From NCBI GenBank assembly GCA_021786915.1, contig JAJYMP010000458.1:1-23952 (forward strand): a stretch of 23,952 bases of DNA, read 5' to 3'. The stretch is from Chloroflexota bacterium (GTDB lineage Bacteria > Chloroflexota > Limnocylindria > Limnocylindrales > CSP1-4). This document shows positions 513 to 7,090 of the stretch, piece by piece. The position numbers and the translations under genes were made by a program. Under the pieces are notes generated by a model. The model ran no database searches and was not told the DNA's origin. It saw nothing but the letters and a program-made list of their open reading frames with translations. Position 1 is the stretch's first letter; each line of letters starts with the position of its first letter.

Positions 513-1127
513 GTGATCGGCGACTGGATCCTGGAGCGCGTCGAGCGAAGTGAACCCGCGGGCCCTGGATTGGAGCATCGCCCTCGCCATTGCGGCGTTC
601 GGCCTGGTCAGTCTCGCCATCGACCCCGTCGGGCAGGGCGGTCGCGAGGCGACGCCGTTGTCGGTGGCGCTCGTCCTGCTGATGAGCCTGCCGCTCGTGG
701 CGCGGCGGCGGCACCCGGACGCGGTCCTCTCGCTGGTCGGCTGCTCGACCATCGTGTACGCCGCGACTGGCCCGCTCTCGCTGGCCGGCATCGGCGTGCT
801 CTACGCCTTCTACTCGATGGCCGTGTACGCCGCCCCGGGCGACTCGCAGCGGGGCCTGTTCTGGACGATGCTGGGCATCACGGCGACCTTCATCGCGGTC
901 CTGTTCAACCAGCCGAACCTGACGCCCGTCTCGTGGGCCAGCCAGCTGCTGACGGCGTGGCTCACGTTCGGGGTCGCGTGGCTGCTCGGCGACCTGATGC
1001 GCCGCCGGAGCGACGCCCTCGCGGAACTCCGGCTGCGGGCCGCGGAACTCGAGGAGGAGCGCGGGGAGAACGGCGGCTCGCGGTCGAGGGCGAGCGGGCG
1101 CGGATCGCGCGCGAGCTGCACGAGCCC
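513..1127 (+). pseudogene. Sensor histidine kinase (NarL/DesK-type) remnant, frameshifted and truncated
   Basis: This is the N-terminal part of a two-component sensor kinase. The frame starting at the GTG at 550 encodes four to five hydrophobic segments and then a cytoplasmic Glu/Arg-rich helix (LRAAELEEER). The phosphoacceptor helix of HisKA_3 kinases, VEGERARIARELHE, continues only in another frame (1083-1124). A one-base deletion near 1071 is therefore implied. If translation begins at the GTG at 513 (VIGDWILERVE), an opposite one-base shift near 550 is also needed. Similarity stops directly after the H-box, where DVVAHS would be expected. The dimerisation remainder and the HATPase_c domain are absent, so the product cannot be a working kinase. 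No response regulator is adjacent. Confidence 0.7.
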
Positions 1128-1603
1128 TGGGCCGCCTCGATCGCCGCTCGGAGCGCGTTCACTTCGTGCGCGTACCTGTCGTCCGGTATCCGCGGCCATC
1201 TCTGGTCGGCCATCATGAACCGAGGCGGCCGCCCCGGATCGGGGTCGTCGGTGTATCTGGGCACGATGTGTGTGTGCAGGTGCGGCAGCGAGTTGCCGAG
1301 CGTCAGGTAGTTGAGCTTGGCCGGCTGATACGCGCCTTCGATGCCGAGCGATACCAGGCGCACCTCGCCCGCGAAGCCGCACGACTCCTCCGCAGTCAGG
1401 TCTGTCGGGTCGGCGGCGTGGCGCCCGCGCCAGAAGACCAGCGTGTATCCGCGGGCCGCAGTGTCGCCGTTGAGATACGCATCCGACCACCGACCGGCAA
1501 AGACGCGTTGGCCGTTGGGGATCTTGTCTGGGCGGCCCTCCTTGCACGCGACGCAGTCGACCCCGCGTCGGCGGTCGTCCCAGTCAGCGGGCCAAGTCCT
1601 CAT
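962..1603 (-). CDS. HIT-family (histidine triad) hydrolase, natural 3' end lost
   Basis: HIT proteins are nucleotide hydrolases or transferases acting on AMP-linked substrates. The start ATG at 1603 has GGAG 11 bases upstream. The protein carries a CxxC pair near residues 17-20 (DCVACK) and the diagnostic HxHxH triad at 108-112 (LPHLHTHIVPRY). The recognisable HIT sequence runs about 160 residues and ends near 1124 (AAIEAAQG). There it meets the antisense strand of the truncated kinase. The original stop codon is gone, so the open frame continues for about 54 residues of antisense kinase sequence to a stop at 962. The core domain looks complete, so activity is possible with a foreign tail. 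The junction is either a deletion or an assembly chimera. Confidence 0.72.
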   Translation of the reverse strand: MRTWPADWDDRRRGVDCVACKEGRPDKIPNGQRVFAGRWSDAYLNGDTAARGYTLVFWRGRHAADPTDLTAEESCGFAGEVRLVSLGIEGAYQPAKLNYLTLGNSLPHLHTHIVPRYTDDPDPGRPPRFMMADQRWPRIPDDRYAHEVNALRAAIEAAQGSCSSRAIRARSPSTASRRSPRAPPRVPRPAAGVPRGRRSGGASGRRAATRPRT

Positions 1604-1860: not shown

Positions 1861-1986
1861 CACTCGTACAATCGCTCGCGACGCGCGGGAAGCCCAAGCA
1901 CCACAGGGCCCCCCAACGAGCAGGTCACGATCGAGCTACCGCCGACGATGGGCGAGTTGATCGACGACGAGGAGCCGAAGGGATGA
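1843..1986 (+). pseudogene. Possible 3' remnant of an unknown gene
   Basis: An open frame running from the stop at 1837-1839 ends QVTIELPPTMGELIDDEEPKG. Its stop TGA overlaps the next gene's start as ATGA, which is typical of translational coupling. No start codon or family is recognisable. It could be the tail of a gene whose 5' part was lost at a rearrangement between the HIT gene and this point. Confidence 0.25.
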
Positions 1987-2426
1987 GTACGACGGGTTCG
2001 CCGGCCTTCTCGCGCGCGGTGCCGCCCGGCTTCCCGCCGGAGCGCCCGGCACCGCCCGTCGTCGCGGAGCCGGACGACCCTTTCACCGCACTCCGCGTGG
2101 TGGACGCGTTCGCGCGGATGGAGCGTGGGCGCCCAGTCGCGATCGACGCGCTCGTCGCGCACCTCAACGCCGCCCACCTCGACTGGCTGTTCACGCGTGA
2201 CGTCGTCGTGTCGGTGCTGGTGGCGCTCCAGGCGAACTGGATGGCCGACTACCGCAACACGTCGGGGATCGTGCTCGAGGACGGGCCGGGCGGCGCGACG
2301 GTCCAGCTCGAGGACTCGTCCCGCGTGGACCCGTGGCTCGTCCGCCAGGCGCTGCGCGTGGCCGCCGACTGTCGCGAGGCCCTCGCCGAGTTCGCGCGAC
2401 GCGACCGGCTGGCGACGGGAGGATAG
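1983..2426 (+). CDS. Hypothetical protein, 147 residues
   Basis: The ATG at 1983 overlaps the stop of the preceding frame (ATGA) and follows a GAAGGG purine run. The first 30 residues are Pro-rich and probably disordered. Residues 35-80 are predicted helical (DPFTALRVVDAFARM, IDALVAHLNAAHLDW). A conserved-looking segment with a beta-hairpin feel follows (IVLEDGPGGATVQLED), and then a C-terminal helix. There is no signal peptide or membrane segment. I do not recognise the family. The arrangement of helices before a hairpin could be a small winged-helix fold, but that is a guess. It is followed two bases later by a tiny gene, so the two are probably cotranscribed. Confidence 0.6.
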   Translation: MSTTGSPAFSRAVPPGFPPERPAPPVVAEPDDPFTALRVVDAFARMERGRPVAIDALVAHLNAAHLDWLFTRDVVVSVLVALQANWMADYRNTSGIVLEDGPGGATVQLEDSSRVDPWLVRQALRVAADCREALAEFARRDRLATGG

Positions 2427-2428
2427 GG

Positions 2429-2557
2429 ATGGCTCGGCTTGGGCGACTCGGGCGGATGCTCCTCTCGCGCCCGCGGCTCCTCGCGTTCGCCGGCATCGTG
2501 ATGGGCACCATCGGGAACTGCGGGATGCCGCAGATCAAGCCGCCGGGGCTGCCGTAG
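2429..2557 (+). CDS. Small hydrophobic protein, 42 residues
   Basis: This frame begins two bases after the stop of the 147-residue gene, with a GGAGGATAGGG purine run just ahead of the ATG. It encodes a basic N-terminus (MARLGRLGRMLLSRPR), one hydrophobic stretch (LLAFAGIVMGTIGNCG) and a short Pro-rich tail. It resembles a single-span membrane or secreted micropeptide. The Cys after the hydrophobic part is lipobox-like but not canonical. The function is unknown. Coupling and the strong ribosome binding site support translation. Confidence 0.5.
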   Translation: MARLGRLGRMLLSRPRLLAFAGIVMGTIGNCGMPQIKPPGLP

Positions 2558-2573
2558 GGGAGCTCCCGGCTCC

Positions 2574-2690
<117 letters not shown>

Positions 2691-2691
2691 C

Positions 2692-2748
2692 CCGCCGTTG
2701 AGGAGCCGGCCGCCGTTGAGGAGCCGGAGCCCGCCGTTGAGGAGCCGG
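2692..2748. repeat. Three copies of an 18-bp direct repeat
   Basis: CCGCCGTTGAGGAGCCGG occurs at 2692-2709, 2710-2727 and 2731-2748. The first two are contiguous and the third follows three extra bases. The array sits exactly where the 5' half of the Fic gene should be. Confidence 0.9.
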
Positions 2749-2763
2749 CGCTCGGGGTCCACC

Positions 2764-3294
2764 GTGCCGGTCGGGCCGGCGCGGGCGCTCGTCCTCGACT
2801 TCCTGGCGATCCATCCGGTCGCTGACGGGAACGGGCGCCTCGCTCGTTTGGTGACGACCCACGCGCTGCTTGCGCAGGGCTGCGCAGTATCGCGCTATGT
2901 GAGCATCGAGCAGCGCATGTTCGAAACCAAGGACGCGTCTTGCGACGCGATCGACGCTTCTCAGAGGCGGTGGCACGACGGAGACCACGACGTCTGGCCG
3001 TGGGTCGGCTATCTTTTGGGCGTCCTCGTTGCTGCATACGACGACCTTGCGGCGCGCGTCGTCGCGCGGCGGAACCTCGCGTTCGGGTCGAAGCAGGACC
3101 AGGTTCGCCGCTACATCCTCGACCACGCCCCGGCTGTGTTCCGCTTTCGTGATGTCCGATCGGCGCTCCCGGGCATCAGCGATCCGACGATCGAGCGGGT
3201 GCTGGCCGACCTGCGTCGAGAGGGGGCGATTGCACTGGTCGATCACACCGCCAGCGGCCGGCTATCCGCCTGGAGGCGGCTCAGCCGATCGTGA
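2764..3294 (+). pseudogene. Fic-family protein, 5'-truncated remnant
   Basis: Fic enzymes transfer AMP or related groups to protein side chains. The catalytic loop HPVADGNGR matches the HPFx(D/E)GNGR signature, with its His codon at 2812. The frame then continues through the C-terminal helices of the Fic fold (SRYVSIEQRMFETK). A winged-helix-like tail follows (SDPTIERVLADLRREG). Everything before VLDFLAIHP is missing: the Fic_N region with the inhibitory helix and the first half of the core. Only about 175 of roughly 350 residues remain. Repeats and low-complexity DNA replace the 5' half. A GTG at 2764 could start translation but the fold would be incomplete. Base composition is somewhat less GC-rich than its neighbours. 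Its stop overlaps the dmpA stop tail-to-tail by 14 bp. Confidence 0.75.
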
Positions 3295-4537
3295 ACCGCG
3301 GCGGCCCTCCCGCCTTCGGCCCGGGCTCGCCGTCGAGGTCGACCCGCTTCGCCAGCGTCTTCGGCCCGCGGCCATACCTCGCCATGATGTCGACCAGCCG
3401 CTCGTGGGCCAGCGCGTGCGCCGTGATCCCGTCCCGGCCTGACATCGTCTCCGCCGCGAGCAGGGCGTTCACGATCGCCGCCTCGGTCGCCTCGACCGCC
3501 GCCTGGAACAGGGGCGTGATCCCGCGATCCACCACCATCTCGGCGGTGACGGTGTGGCGGGGGTCCCGCTCGCCGGCCGATGTCGACAGCTCGCGGTTGC
3601 CCGTCGCGAACGCGAGGATGAGGTCCCCCGAGCCGTGCGACGCGATGCCGCCCATCCGGGCGATCCCCAGGCTCGCGCGCTGCGCGAGGCGCTCGCACTG
3701 GTGCGGGAGGAGCGGTGCGTCGGTCGCGAGCACCACGATGATCGAGCCGCCGCCGGGACCGCAGCGCCCCGACGTGCCGGTGGAAGCGGACAGGGTGCCC
3801 GATGCCTCGGCCGCTTCGAGCCGCTCCTCGTCGTCCCACGGGCTCGGCACCTCGGCGAGTGGGATCTCCTGGCCCACCGGCACGCCGTCGACCCGTAGCA
3901 GCCCGCGCGACCCGTAGTTCGCCTGGACCAGCGCGCCCACGACCCAGCCGCCGTCGCTGTCGGCCGTCCGGCGCGACGCCGTCCCGATGCCGCCCTTGAA
4001 CTCGTGGCAGATCATCCCGGTGCCGCCGCCGACGTTGCCCTCGGCCACGGGCCCGCCACTCGCCGACGCGATCGCCGCATCCACGTGGGCTTGTTTCACG
4101 TGAAACCCGTTGATGTCGTTGAGCGCGCCGTCGTAGGTCTCGCCGACGACCGGCAGCGACCAGAAGACCGACCGCGGGCTGTGCGACCGCGCGGCGTGGG
4201 CGATGAGCGCGTCGTGGACCACGCCGACGGAGTGCGTGTTGGTGATGCCGACGATGCCGCCCAGGAACCCGGACTCGCGCACCCACTCGAGGCCCGTGAG
4301 CTCGCCATTGCCGTTGAGCCGATGGCAGCCGGCGAAGAGGGGCTCGGTCCAGACGTCGCCGTCGTGCGGGATGACCACGGTCACGCCGGTCCGCACCGGA
4401 CCCTGGCCCACGACCAGCGGCCCCTCGCCCGAGACGAGCGTCGTGTGCCCCACGCGAACGCCCGGGACGTCGGTGATGGCGTCGAGGTCACCGGGCTCGA
4501 GCAGGCCGATCCGAATGCCCAGCTCGCGTGCGCGCAT
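3281..4537 (-). CDS. dmpA: P1 family peptidase (DmpA-type L-aminopeptidase/D-esterase, family S58)
   Basis: Family S58 enzymes are N-terminal-nucleophile hydrolases that cut themselves into alpha and beta chains and release N-terminal residues from peptides, amides or esters. The 418-residue protein starts DLDAITDVPGVRVGHTTL, typical of the family. It contains GGIVGITNTHSVGVVHDA and EGNVGGGTGM. The self-cleavage site is PGGGSIIVVLATDAPL, with the predicted nucleophile Ser265. Tyr135 and Asn207 align plausibly with the supporting catalytic residues of DmpA. No signal peptide is seen, so it should be cytoplasmic. The ATG at 4537 follows GGAGGAG at good spacing. It is divergent from pabB. A parS-like site lies inside the gene at 4092-4107, encoded by GFHVKQ. 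Substrate preference (D-Ala, beta-peptides or other) cannot be read from sequence. Confidence 0.92.
   Translation of the reverse strand: MRARELGIRIGLLEPGDLDAITDVPGVRVGHTTLVSGEGPLVVGQGPVRTGVTVVIPHDGDVWTEPLFAGCHRLNGNGELTGLEWVRESGFLGGIVGITNTHSVGVVHDALIAHAARSHSPRSVFWSLPVVGETYDGALNDINGFHVKQAHVDAAIASASGGPVAEGNVGGGTGMICHEFKGGIGTASRRTADSDGGWVVGALVQANYGSRGLLRVDGVPVGQEIPLAEVPSPWDDEERLEAAEASGTLSASTGTSGRCGPGGGSIIVVLATDAPLLPHQCERLAQRASLGIARMGGIASHGSGDLILAFATGNRELSTSAGERDPRHTVTAEMVVDRGITPLFQAAVEATEAAIVNALLAAETMSGRDGITAHALAHERLVDIMARYGRGPKTLAKRVDLDGEPGPKAGGPPRFTIG
4092..4107. other. parS: parS-like ParB-binding site inside dmpA
   Basis: TGTTTCACGTGAAACC matches the widely conserved bacterial parS consensus TGTTNCACGTGAAACA at every position except the last. 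The inner GTTTCACGTGAAAC is a perfect 14-bp palindrome. On the dmpA strand it is read as TTT-CAC-GTG-AAA-CAA. TTT, AAA and CAA are unusual codons in a genome that otherwise prefers TTC, AAG and CAG, which suggests the DNA sequence itself is under selection. Known parS sites centre near the replication origin. No parA or parB gene is in the window. Confidence 0.8.
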
Positions 4538-4598: not shown

Positions 4599-4604
4599 CG
4601 CCGG

Positions 4605-6185
4605 GTGTCGTCCATGTCCCGAGCCCGTCCCGATGCGCGGCCCGTTGCCCGCGGTCGCGGAGCGCCTGATTCACACCGGCTGGTTCGCGTCCGGCGGCTG
4701 CCAGAGCTCGACGGCGTCGCGCCGATGGACGCAGCCGAGGCGTTCCGCGACCTGCCCGGGCTCGCCCTGCTGGAGAGCGCGCGGCCGGGCCGGATGGGTC
4801 GCTGGAGCCTGCTGACCGCCGATCCGGTGGCCGTGCTCGAGACGGCGGACGATGGCGTCGATCCGTTCCGCGATGTGCGGTCGCTGCTGGCCAGGCTGGC
4901 GCCGGGCGAAGCCGAAGCCGACGAAGCCGACGACGCCGAAGCTGGCGAAGCCGATAACGACGCCGACGACGCCGACGCCGAGGCCGGCGAACCCGGTGGA
5001 CGCGACCACGACTGGGCCCGCCGCGCTCCACGGCCCCCGTTCCTCGGCGGGCTGGTGGGCTATCTCGGGTACGACCTCGGGCGGCGGCTCGAGCGGCTGC
5101 CGTCGATCGCGCGCGCGGACCAGTCGCTGCCCGAGCTCCGGCTGGCCCTCCACGACTGGGTGATCGCGTGGGATCGCCGGACGGGCGCGGCGTGGCTCGG
5201 CGGGCGGACGCTCGACGGGGATGCGTCGCGGCTCGAGCGGCGTCTGGGAGCAGTGCGGGAGCGGCTCGCGTCCGCTTCGGCTGCGTCGGCTTCGTCGGCT
5301 TCGGCCTTGTCGCCCGCCGACACCGCCCTCGTCCTCGTCTCGGGCACCACCCGCGCGCAGTGGGTCGAGCGGATCGAGGCCGTTCGCAGCGCCATCGCCG
5401 AGGGCGAGGTCTACCAGGCGAACCTCACGCGCCGCCTCGAGGCGCCCTTCGTCGGCGACCCGTGGCCCCTCTTCCGCCGCCTCCGCACCGGCGACCCCGC
5501 CCTGTTCGCCGGCTACCTCGACCTGGGCGCCGAAGCACAGACAGGCGTCCCGCGCGCCCTCCTCTCCGCGTCGCCGGAGCCGTTCCTCTCGGTGGACGCC
5601 CACGGCAACGTCTCGACCGACCCGATCAAGGGCACCCGGCCCCGCGGGCGGACACGCGAGGAGGACCGGGCTCTCGCGCGCGAGCTCCTCGCCAGCCGCA
5701 AAGACCAGGCCGAGAACGTGATGATCGTGGACGTGCTGCGCAACGACCTCGGGCGCGTCTGCGTGCCCGGGACCGTCCGCGTGCCCCGGCTGCTGCGCCT
5801 TGAGCGCACGGCGGCCGTCCAGCACCTCGTGACCACCGTGACCGGCCGCCTGGCGCCGGGCAAGGACGCCTTCGACCTCCTCGCGGCCTCGTTCCCGGGC
5901 GGCAGCATCACGGGCGCGCCCAAGATCCGGGCCATGGAGGTCATCGAGCGCCTGGAGCCCGTGCGCCGCGGCCCGTACTGCGGCACCATGCTGTGGCTGG
6001 GCGCCGACGGCCGGATGGGCTCGTCCATCCTGATCCGGACGTTCGTCGCCGACGGCGCGCGGCTCACGCTCCACGTGGGCGGGGGGATCACGTGGCGGAG
6101 CGACCCGCAGGACGAGTGGGACGAGACGGTCGCGAAGGCGCGCGGGCCGCTGGCCGCGATCGGCGCTGTGGAGGTGCTTGCGTGA
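4605..6185 (+). CDS. pabB: Aminodeoxychorismate synthase component I
   Basis: PabB converts chorismate and ammonia to 4-amino-4-deoxychorismate for folate synthesis. The ammonia comes from a PabA glutaminase not encoded here. The N-terminal part contains GRWSLLTADPVAVLE. The chorismate-binding domain carries DPIKGTRPRG, whose Lys (codon 5628) matches the PabB nucleophile that replaces the Thr of anthranilate synthase. SFPGGSITGAPKIRAMEVIE and CGTMLWLGADGRM follow, so PabB is favoured over TrpE. The GTG at 4605 fits a leaderless start; the ATG at 4614 is the alternative and shortens the protein from 526 to 523 residues. Two Ala-rich low-complexity insertions occur: an Asp/Glu/Ala stretch near residues 102-128 and an Ala/Ser stretch near 223-235. 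They are made by one repeat in opposite orientations. The gene overlaps pabC by 4 bp. Confidence 0.9.
   Translation: MSSMSRARPDARPVARGRGAPDSHRLVRVRRLPELDGVAPMDAAEAFRDLPGLALLESARPGRMGRWSLLTADPVAVLETADDGVDPFRDVRSLLARLAPGEAEADEADDAEAGEADNDADDADAEAGEPGGRDHDWARRAPRPPFLGGLVGYLGYDLGRRLERLPSIARADQSLPELRLALHDWVIAWDRRTGAAWLGGRTLDGDASRLERRLGAVRERLASASAASASSASALSPADTALVLVSGTTRAQWVERIEAVRSAIAEGEVYQANLTRRLEAPFVGDPWPLFRRLRTGDPALFAGYLDLGAEAQTGVPRALLSASPEPFLSVDAHGNVSTDPIKGTRPRGRTREEDRALARELLASRKDQAENVMIVDVLRNDLGRVCVPGTVRVPRLLRLERTAAVQHLVTTVTGRLAPGKDAFDLLAASFPGGSITGAPKIRAMEVIERLEPVRRGPYCGTMLWLGADGRMGSSILIRTFVADGARLTLHVGGGITWRSDPQDEWDETVAKARGPLAAIGAVEVLA
4911..4942 (+). repeat. GCCGAA/GCCGAC repeat, forward copy in pabB
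   Basis: This 32-base stretch reads GCCGAAGCCGACGAAGCC and on. It matches the reverse complement of 5274-5305 with two mismatches, the first 22 bases being identical. Here it encodes alternating Glu/Asp and Ala, and related triplets continue to about 4990. Confidence 0.85.
5274..5305 (-). repeat. GCCGAA/GCCGAC repeat, inverted copy in pabB
   Basis: This is the reverse-complement partner of 4911-4942, about 330 bases downstream. Read on the plus strand it encodes alternating Ala and Ser. It lies between the N-terminal and chorismate-binding parts of PabB, where a flexible linker is tolerable. Confidence 0.85.
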
Positions 6186-7090
6186 CGGGTCCGGGACCGA
6201 AGTTCGCGTGGATCAACGGCGAGGTGCTGCCGGCCGACGCGTGCCACCTCTCGGTGAACGACCGCGGCTTCCAGCTGGGCGACGGCATCTTCGAGACCCT
6301 GCGCGCGAAGGCCGGGCGCTGCACCGAGCTGCTCGAGCACGTGGCGCGACTCCGGCATTCGGCGGCCGGTCTGGCGATCGAGTTGCCCGATGACGTGGAC
6401 GTCCGGCTCGCCGACGGCATCGCGCGGCTCCTGGCGGCGGAGGGGCTCGACGGGCCGGGTGGCGACGCCTCCGTGCGGATCACCGTCTCGCGCGGGGTCT
6501 GGGCCTCACGCGGCCTGCTCCCGCCGCGCGACATGCACCTGGCCCCCACCATCGCCATCCAGGCCTGGCCGGTCGACCCGCCGCCCGCCGGGCACCTCGA
6601 GCGTGGCATCGCGGTCGTGGCCTCGGCCATCCGGCGCGACCCGCAGAACCCGATCGTCACGCTCAAGACCACTTCGCGCGCCGACTACGTGTTCGCCCGC
6701 CTCGAGGCCCGCCGCGCCGGCGCGGACGATGCGCTGTTCCTCACCAACACCGGCCACCTGTCCGAGGCCACGACCGCGAACGTCTTCCTCGTCCGCACGG
6801 CCGCCGACGGCGTGCTGGAGCTGGCGACCCCTGCGCTCGACTGCGCGATCCTCCCCGGCACCACGCGCTCGTGGCTGCTGCGCTGGGCGGCGGGCGTGGG
6901 CCTGCGGCCGTTCGAGGGTTGGCTGACCCCCGACGAGCTCGCGACCGCCCACGAGGCGTTCATCTCGTCGTCGGTGGCGGGCGTGCTGCCGATCACGCGG
7001 TTCAACGGCCACCCGATCGGGGATGGGCTGCCGGGCCCCTGGACGCGTCGCGCGCGTGCGGACCGCGAGGCAGTGTTCGGCCGGGGTTGA
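6182..7090 (+). CDS. pabC: PLP-dependent class IV aminotransferase / aminodeoxychorismate lyase
   Basis: Position directly after pabB, with a GTGA start-stop overlap, points to aminodeoxychorismate lyase, which releases pyruvate and p-aminobenzoate. The 302-residue protein has the fold-type IV pattern: WINGEVLPADACHLSVNDRG, then GDGIFETLRA. The PLP Lys162 lies in VTLKTTSRADYV. Glu195 in HLSEATTANVF should contact the pyridine nitrogen. ALDCAILPGTTRSWLL and AHEAFISSSVAGVLPI near the C-terminus are family-typical. The same fold includes branched-chain and D-amino-acid aminotransferases, so the assignment rests on the operon. There is no separate promoter. Translation is presumably coupled to pabB. 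Confidence 0.85.
   Translation: MTGPGPKFAWINGEVLPADACHLSVNDRGFQLGDGIFETLRAKAGRCTELLEHVARLRHSAAGLAIELPDDVDVRLADGIARLLAAEGLDGPGGDASVRITVSRGVWASRGLLPPRDMHLAPTIAIQAWPVDPPPAGHLERGIAVVASAIRRDPQNPIVTLKTTSRADYVFARLEARRAGADDALFLTNTGHLSEATTANVFLVRTAADGVLELATPALDCAILPGTTRSWLLRWAAGVGLRPFEGWLTPDELATAHEAFISSSVAGVLPITRFNGHPIGDGLPGPWTRRARADREAVFGRG

Follow-up and report, generated by a model that had tools for sequence, protein, structure and literature searches.

A parS-like site conserved within the codons of a dmpA-like peptidase gene in uncultured Chloroflexota

Results

The dmpA-like gene and its neighbourhood

The window, by which we mean the whole 23,952-nucleotide stretch of Chloroflexota DNA analysed here, carries on its minus strand a dmpA-like gene (3281..4537) whose product belongs to the S58 peptidases (PF03576, Peptidase_S58; 373 bits, 1.8e-111), has 5tzb as its best match in the PDB (1.1e-107) and is a relative of D-aminopeptidase and beta-peptidyl aminopeptidase. 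This gene is the host of the site described below. Divergent from it on the plus strand is a gene for a chorismate-binding enzyme (pabB/trpE-like, 4599..6185; PF00425 and PF04715), a neighbour that is kept in relatives; the start at 4599 is our choice, the mechanical open reading frame (ORF) beginning at 4203. A class IV aminotransferase gene (6188..7090, plus strand) belongs to the same conserved neighbourhood. On the side of dmpA that faces parAB in relatives lies a conserved small ORF (1983..2426, plus strand) with no Pfam match, which is 66-94% identical in the relatives G001-G006 and serves as a synteny marker. A search of the window for tRNA genes found none, and its GC skew shows a weak sign change near 17 kb that was not used in placement.

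Two further stretches were noted in the window. A frame with a DUF7134 domain (window 550-1600) ends abruptly near position 1090, beside an opposite-strand frame with a HIT domain; the alignment with relative G022 omits window bases 986-1449, and the 550-1600 stretch has the appearance of inserted or rearranged DNA. Positions 2125-3294 give a weak Fic-family match (22.5 bits against a cut-off of 24), and the stretch beside it encodes repeated Ser-His-Pro-Arg and Pro-Arg units.

A palindromic parS-like site within the dmpA reading frame

The sequence TGTTTCACGTGAAACC, which we located in the window at 4092..4107 and list without a strand, lies 431-446 bp into dmpA. Fourteen of its bases, GTTTCACGTGAAAC at 4093-4106, form a perfect palindrome. 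Compared with TGTTNCACGTGAAACA, which we, like the first-pass annotation of this DNA, take to be the 16-bp parS consensus, the site has one mismatch: its 14 central bases fit the consensus and its last base is C instead of A. The annotation had described a near-consensus parS at exactly this position, with its last base off and a 14-bp palindrome, and both position and letters are correct. When we searched the whole window for the consensus with up to three mismatches the dmpA site was the sole match (a palindromic site is reported on both strands and counts as one place), while 0.02 matches were expected from 100 shuffles. The dmpA site thus has both the 16-bp consensus and the palindromic core of a parS.

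The reading frame passes through the site as GGG (4108-4106) TTT CAC GTG AAA CAA (4093-4091), the palindrome starting at the last base of GGG and ending at the first of CAA. The one mismatch, at 4107, falls on the middle base of the Gly codon and is therefore fixed by the protein, while the synonymous positions inside the palindrome all agree with parS. To judge the spelling we compiled codon usage from 13 window ORFs (4,839 codons) picked for Pfam matches or synteny, and removed one each of GGG, TTT, CAC, GTG and AAA for the site itself, CAA being kept in. TTT accounts for 2 of 148 Phe codons (1.4%), AAA for 3 of 55 Lys codons (5.5%) and CAA for 8 of 126 Gln codons (6.3%); CAC (85/95 His) and GTG (190/415 Val) are common, and GGG makes up 27% of Gly codons (121/443). 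Given the peptide GFHVK, the product of these frequencies puts the chance of this spelling at 8.2e-5; codon usage from contigs G002:C51 and G001:C43, in which the site codons were left in, gives 5.8e-5 and 1.7e-5, respectively. Since the value of 8.2e-5 concerns one gene that was chosen after the site had been noticed, the comparison with relatives weighs more.

The first-pass annotation had named five codons, TTT to CAA, and called three of them disfavoured. TTT, AAA and CAA are indeed all rare, but the rarity of CAA is incidental to the site, because its third base falls outside the 14-mer and varies among the seven site-bearing relatives described below (five CAG, one CAA and one CCA). The Gly codon GGG, which the annotation did not include, has its third base within the palindrome and is conserved.

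Relatives of dmpA with and without the site

Among the best 80 dmpA loci of the matches listed, five carry the 14-mer, and these are the five most similar to the window's gene (78-93% protein identity); all five are from Chloroflexi MAGs. Their genomes fall in one family of 107 genomes, which also has a member (G014) named Candidatus Limnocylindrales. In 30 genomes of this family we found dmpA in 20 (E up to 1e-60), and seven of the 20 (G001-G005, G022 and G023) bear the site in genes with 77-92% DNA identity to the window dmpA. The codons GGG-TTT-CAC-GTG-AAA (Gly-Phe-His-Val-Lys; window 4094..4108, minus strand) are unchanged in all seven.

The same residues also occur without the site. FHVK is present in nine of the best 80 loci, four of which (L006, L047, L065 and L076) lack the site. 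Within the family, the dmpA of G006 (L170, 77% identical) encodes FHVKQ as TTC CAC GTC AAG CAG and lacks the site, and this genome still has two parS beside parA. At this place in DmpA, the site-less G025 and G021 have QHVRA and QHVRP, respectively, with the genes around dmpA arranged as in the site-bearers, and the remaining ten site-less genes of the 20 have R or T where the site-bearers have K. The ordinary codons of G006 show that this peptide can be encoded without the site arising and that dmpA need not carry it. The first-pass annotation had offered as a refutation the finding of orthologues that spell FHVKQ ordinarily in species that keep parS elsewhere; one such case thus exists, while the other eight sequences, counting the window's own, keep the spelling, and the absence in G006 leaves unexplained why they do. 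The FHVKQ of G006, with K where ten others have R or T, may be a protein trace of a lost parS; G006 may be such a relic, or a branch that predates the gain. Taken together, G006, G025 and G021 indicate that the site is either dispensable or a late gain.

Retention of rare codons between lineages

In a DmpA tree the site-bearing sequences cluster as one clade, or nearly one, and divide into three groups: the window with G002 and G022 (support 100/99), G004 with G005 (100/99) and, more weakly, G001 with G003 and G023 (83/86). DNA identity between the groups is 76-83%. The position of G006 and G025 relative to these groups is not settled in trees of GyrA, DmpA or ParA, so the order of gain and loss cannot be set.

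Plain codon identity proved too weak a test of selection: 86 of the 257 other degenerate, amino-acid-invariant dmpA codons are identical in all eight sequences, and the residue-wise product of such rates, calculated by hand, is about 0.03. For this reason we used instead the retention of A/T-ending codons. Outside the site, 101 invariant columns contain any A/T-ending codon and none of them shares one across all eight sequences; between groups, such codons are retained in 3-21% of comparisons. At the site, TTT and AAA are retained in all eight. That five codons are identical in eight dmpA sequences, with rare codons unchanged in the window and in seven relatives from three lineages, points to selection on the DNA, as the first-pass annotation had supposed.

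Distribution of the 14-mer in the family

The exact 14-mer occurs in 55 of the 107 genomes of the family, that of the window's nearest relative, in a total of 74 copies: 67 in the parA flank, seven in dmpA and none elsewhere. Of the parA-flank copies, 63 are no more than 574 bp from parA1 on the same contig. The other four (two in G003, one in G011 and one in G091) are on contigs where no parA was found, beside mreD-, mrdA- and rodA-like genes, and were assigned to the parA flank by eye, genes of these kinds flanking parA1 in G002. The reversed sequence as a control gave no exact match in the 107 genomes. A scan of the kind that the first-pass annotation proposed, made in the genomes of relatives, therefore places the motif at anything but random positions: it clusters near the origin as parS sites do, in the parA flank or in dmpA only.

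Allowing one mismatch in 15 genomes yielded 23 sites in 12 of them. Five of these sites are in dmpA, and the other 18 belong to the parA1/parB1 locus or the mreD side of it; G008-G010 had no site even so, and the reversed control gave one match in G004 and three in G005. We had considered whether weak sites might be scattered over the genomes, and rejected the idea, as these one-mismatch extras also lie at the parA1/parB1 locus.

The 14-mer stands beside parA in G002, G004, G005, G006, G021, G022 and G025, and site-bearing genomes whose parA flank could be seen have one to three sites there. We looked at eight parA1 loci from genomes that lack the exact 14-mer. Five of these (G019, G020, G026, G028 and G029) carry GTTTCACGTGCAAC or its complement, a sequence that fits the consensus through its free base and that is also the parA-side site of G001; the other three (G016, G018 and G037) carry other variants.

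The parA-side parS of G002 (L123 1429-1446) can itself be read as ATG TTT CAC GTG AAA CAA (MFHVKQ), in frame with the mechanical mreD ORF. Gene starts called on such parS-containing frames may be wrong.

ParAB proteins of the relatives

The gene order in G002 is gyrA-gyrB-parB-parA-[parS]-mreD-mrdA-rodA. GyrA, GyrB, MreD, MrdA and a RodA model score above NCBIfam cut-offs. Matches of the ParA-like protein are to ParA/MinD-type models, none of them above the NCBIfam cut-off, and ParB1 matches solved Spo0J/ParB chains, the best at 6.4e-59. A ParB above the TIGR00180 cut-off is present in 15 of 15 relatives, with a model that also matches 10 of 14 control genomes. In Caulobacter ParB, residues R173 and G201 are reported to contact parS and to differ in Noc (PMC7383237). 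ParB1 has R and G at these positions, counted ungapped from the GKAR motif in G002, in 17 of 17 genomes, a set that excludes G023; ParB1 was not found in G003.

Where the first-pass annotation had read a ParABS system out of the site and had named the absence of parB as grounds for rejection, parB is present in the relatives, and the 14-mer beside parA, together with a ParB that has the residues predicted to read parS, supports such a system in them.

A second parA-parB pair (parAB-2; L111 1390-2418, L106, L241 and L242) was also observed: at least two ParA-like matches were obtained in 25 of 30 genomes and two ParB over the cut-off in 13 of 15. In G001-G004 residue 173 of its ParB-2 is K; residue 201 is S in G001, G003 and G004, the coverage in G002 not reaching it. 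Within 10-20 kb around parAB-2 in G001, G002, G003 and G006 we found no parS with up to two mismatches, and of the perfect 14-nt palindromes there none recurs in all four loci, while two recur in two of them.

Position relative to parA and dnaA

Collinearity with the window extends over roughly 45 to 73 kb of G002:C51 and, from window base 38 on, over G022:C42; window bases 1-1919, unplaced against G002, are mostly covered by G022. In G002 coordinates G022:C42 and C16 meet. The dmpA site and parA1 are on the same contig 26.4 kb apart in G002 and 36.4 kb apart in G001, and by the gene order of G022 and G002 the site in the window's genome should lie about 26-28 kb from parA.

In eight of the 20 genomes searched for dnaA (G012, G018, G020, G021, G031, G033, G037 and G064) parA1 and dnaA share a contig and are 24-51 kb apart. 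Another 11 have the two genes on separate contigs, among them G001-G005 and G022, whose dnaA contig does not carry dmpA either; in G016 no DnaA scores above the cut-off. There is no dnaA in the 32 kb beyond parA on G001:C43, and in G021 dnaA lies on the opposite side of parAB from dmpA. The origin-proximal location that the first-pass annotation had deduced thus appears sound, resting on synteny to parA and on the parA-dnaA distance in those eight relatives. Wherever the distance is visible, directly in G001 and G002 and through synteny in G022, the site-bearing dmpA is close to parAB. In G012, parAB and dmpA share a contig, about 620 kb apart, and this dmpA has no site. G021 has the dmpA-parAB gene order without the site, which shows that gene order is not tied to it.

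Discussion

We consider it very probable, on the sequence comparisons above, that the dmpA site is a parS at which the chromosomal ParB, ParB1, would load, and that selection acting on the DNA has preserved it inside the peptidase coding sequence. The best reading is a secondary parS, maintained by selection, that belongs to the chromosomal ParABS system. It resembles chromosomal parS (TGTTNCACGTGAAACA) in its 14 central bases, in the presence of the same 14-mer beside parA within the family and, by synteny, in its place in the origin region. It differs in that it ends in C and not A, lies in a peptidase gene and is 26-36 kb from parA in two relatives, and it is a candidate recognised from sequence alone.

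If so, ParB-CTP would load on the dmpA site, its clamp would close and it would slide onto adjacent DNA. At parS, ParB of this type is loaded as a clamp that depends on CTP, and then slides; it is reported to cover up to 18 kb around parS (PMC8299390). Loading at dmpA would create a second ParB patch 26-36 kb from the main parA-side parS, perhaps touching the first, within the origin region that ParA would move and where SMC would load. ParB binding, clamp loading and use of the dmpA site in segregation are all predictions of this kind.

The main alternative use of the site is in transcription. ParB loaded at dmpA could slide over the dmpA and pabB promoters and lower their expression, with segregation incidental. 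The position of the site is suitable, 431-446 bp into a gene whose start faces the divergent pabB-like gene, and in Pseudomonas aeruginosa the promoters adjacent to parS3 and parS4 are reported to be repressed (PMC5521831). However, G025 and G021 have the same arrangement of neighbouring genes although the site is absent there, and as a replacement for a role in segregation we regard regulation as unlikely; an effect of ParB on dmpA/pabB transcription is compatible with such a role.

It is very improbable that we are looking at a chance match passed on by descent, FHVK having happened to be spelled with TTT and AAA in relatives too close to have diverged. The site-bearers do form one clade or nearly, and identity of a codon in all eight sequences is not rare (86/257). 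But rare codons elsewhere in dmpA were not kept, with between-group retention of only 3-21%, the dmpA 14-mer is identical to the parA1-side site, and random hits should scatter, whereas none of the 74 exact copies in 107 genomes lies outside the parA flank and dmpA.

A shade less probable again is that the site belongs to the diverged parAB-2 system or is of Noc type. Second pairs are widespread (at least two ParA-like proteins in 25/30 genomes, two ParB in 13/15), but G001, G002, G003 and G006 have no site with up to two mismatches near parAB-2, and ParB-2, where covered, has K173 (four genomes) and S201 (three) in place of the R and G that ParB1 has in 17/17. A Noc acting at a Noc binding site (NBS) would have the equivalents of Q173 and R201, and the dmpA site itself has parS bases, not NBS bases, at positions 1 and 6. 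Least credible of all is that the spelling reflects either translation of dmpA, slowed at TTT and AAA, or a constraint on the protein: TTT and AAA are rare, it is true, but G006 encodes an identical peptide through TTC, GTC and AAG, the non-rare GTG and GGG are conserved exactly where the palindrome requires them, and the identity with the parA-side site would go unexplained.

Intragenic parS are known, so the kind of site is not new. In Pseudomonas aeruginosa nine of ten parS are reported to be most likely within coding sequences (PMC4368675). Those sites are likewise written within reading frames, but their letters differ (TGTTCCACGTGGAACA), and dmpA here holds one intragenic site outside the parA flank. 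In Corynebacterium glutamicum, parS1 lies in trpCF, in a set of ten sites that spans 35 kb at 73 kb from oriC (PMC7083940). There parS1 is, like the dmpA site, the sole intragenic and outlying member of its set, at a similar scale of distance; the nine other C. glutamicum sites are intergenic in one cluster, whereas here one to three stand beside parA in the site-bearing genomes whose flank could be seen. The open-access literature searched (subscription papers lay outside the search) yielded nothing that joins Limnocylindria with chromosome segregation or ParABS with Chloroflexota, and no paper on parS, ParB and Chloroflexi was, by its title and the start of its abstract, a study of parS in Chloroflexota. 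As far as searched, the novelty within that literature lies in the organism group, in one single outlying site that recurs and in how strong the codon evidence is.

Going further than a secondary parS, one may speculate that the centromere of this clade has two nodes, the parA-side parS cluster and a recurrent dmpA site 26-36 kb off with a role of its own, whether as another point of SMC loading, as the edge of the ParB domain or in control of dmpA/pabB by ParB, and kept for long enough to hold the spelling of a motif in the peptidase fixed and perhaps to have caused its Arg-to-Lys change. We hold this extended proposal to be possible but doubtful.

With the dmpA site read as a selected secondary parS, the locus offers a clear natural example in which a protein-binding site dictates codon choice, the five residues concerned being encoded both with it (in the window and seven relatives) and without it (in G006). 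An otherwise uninformative contig gains a place on the chromosome, and an uncultured Chloroflexota family gains a predicted ParABS system together with its set of sites.
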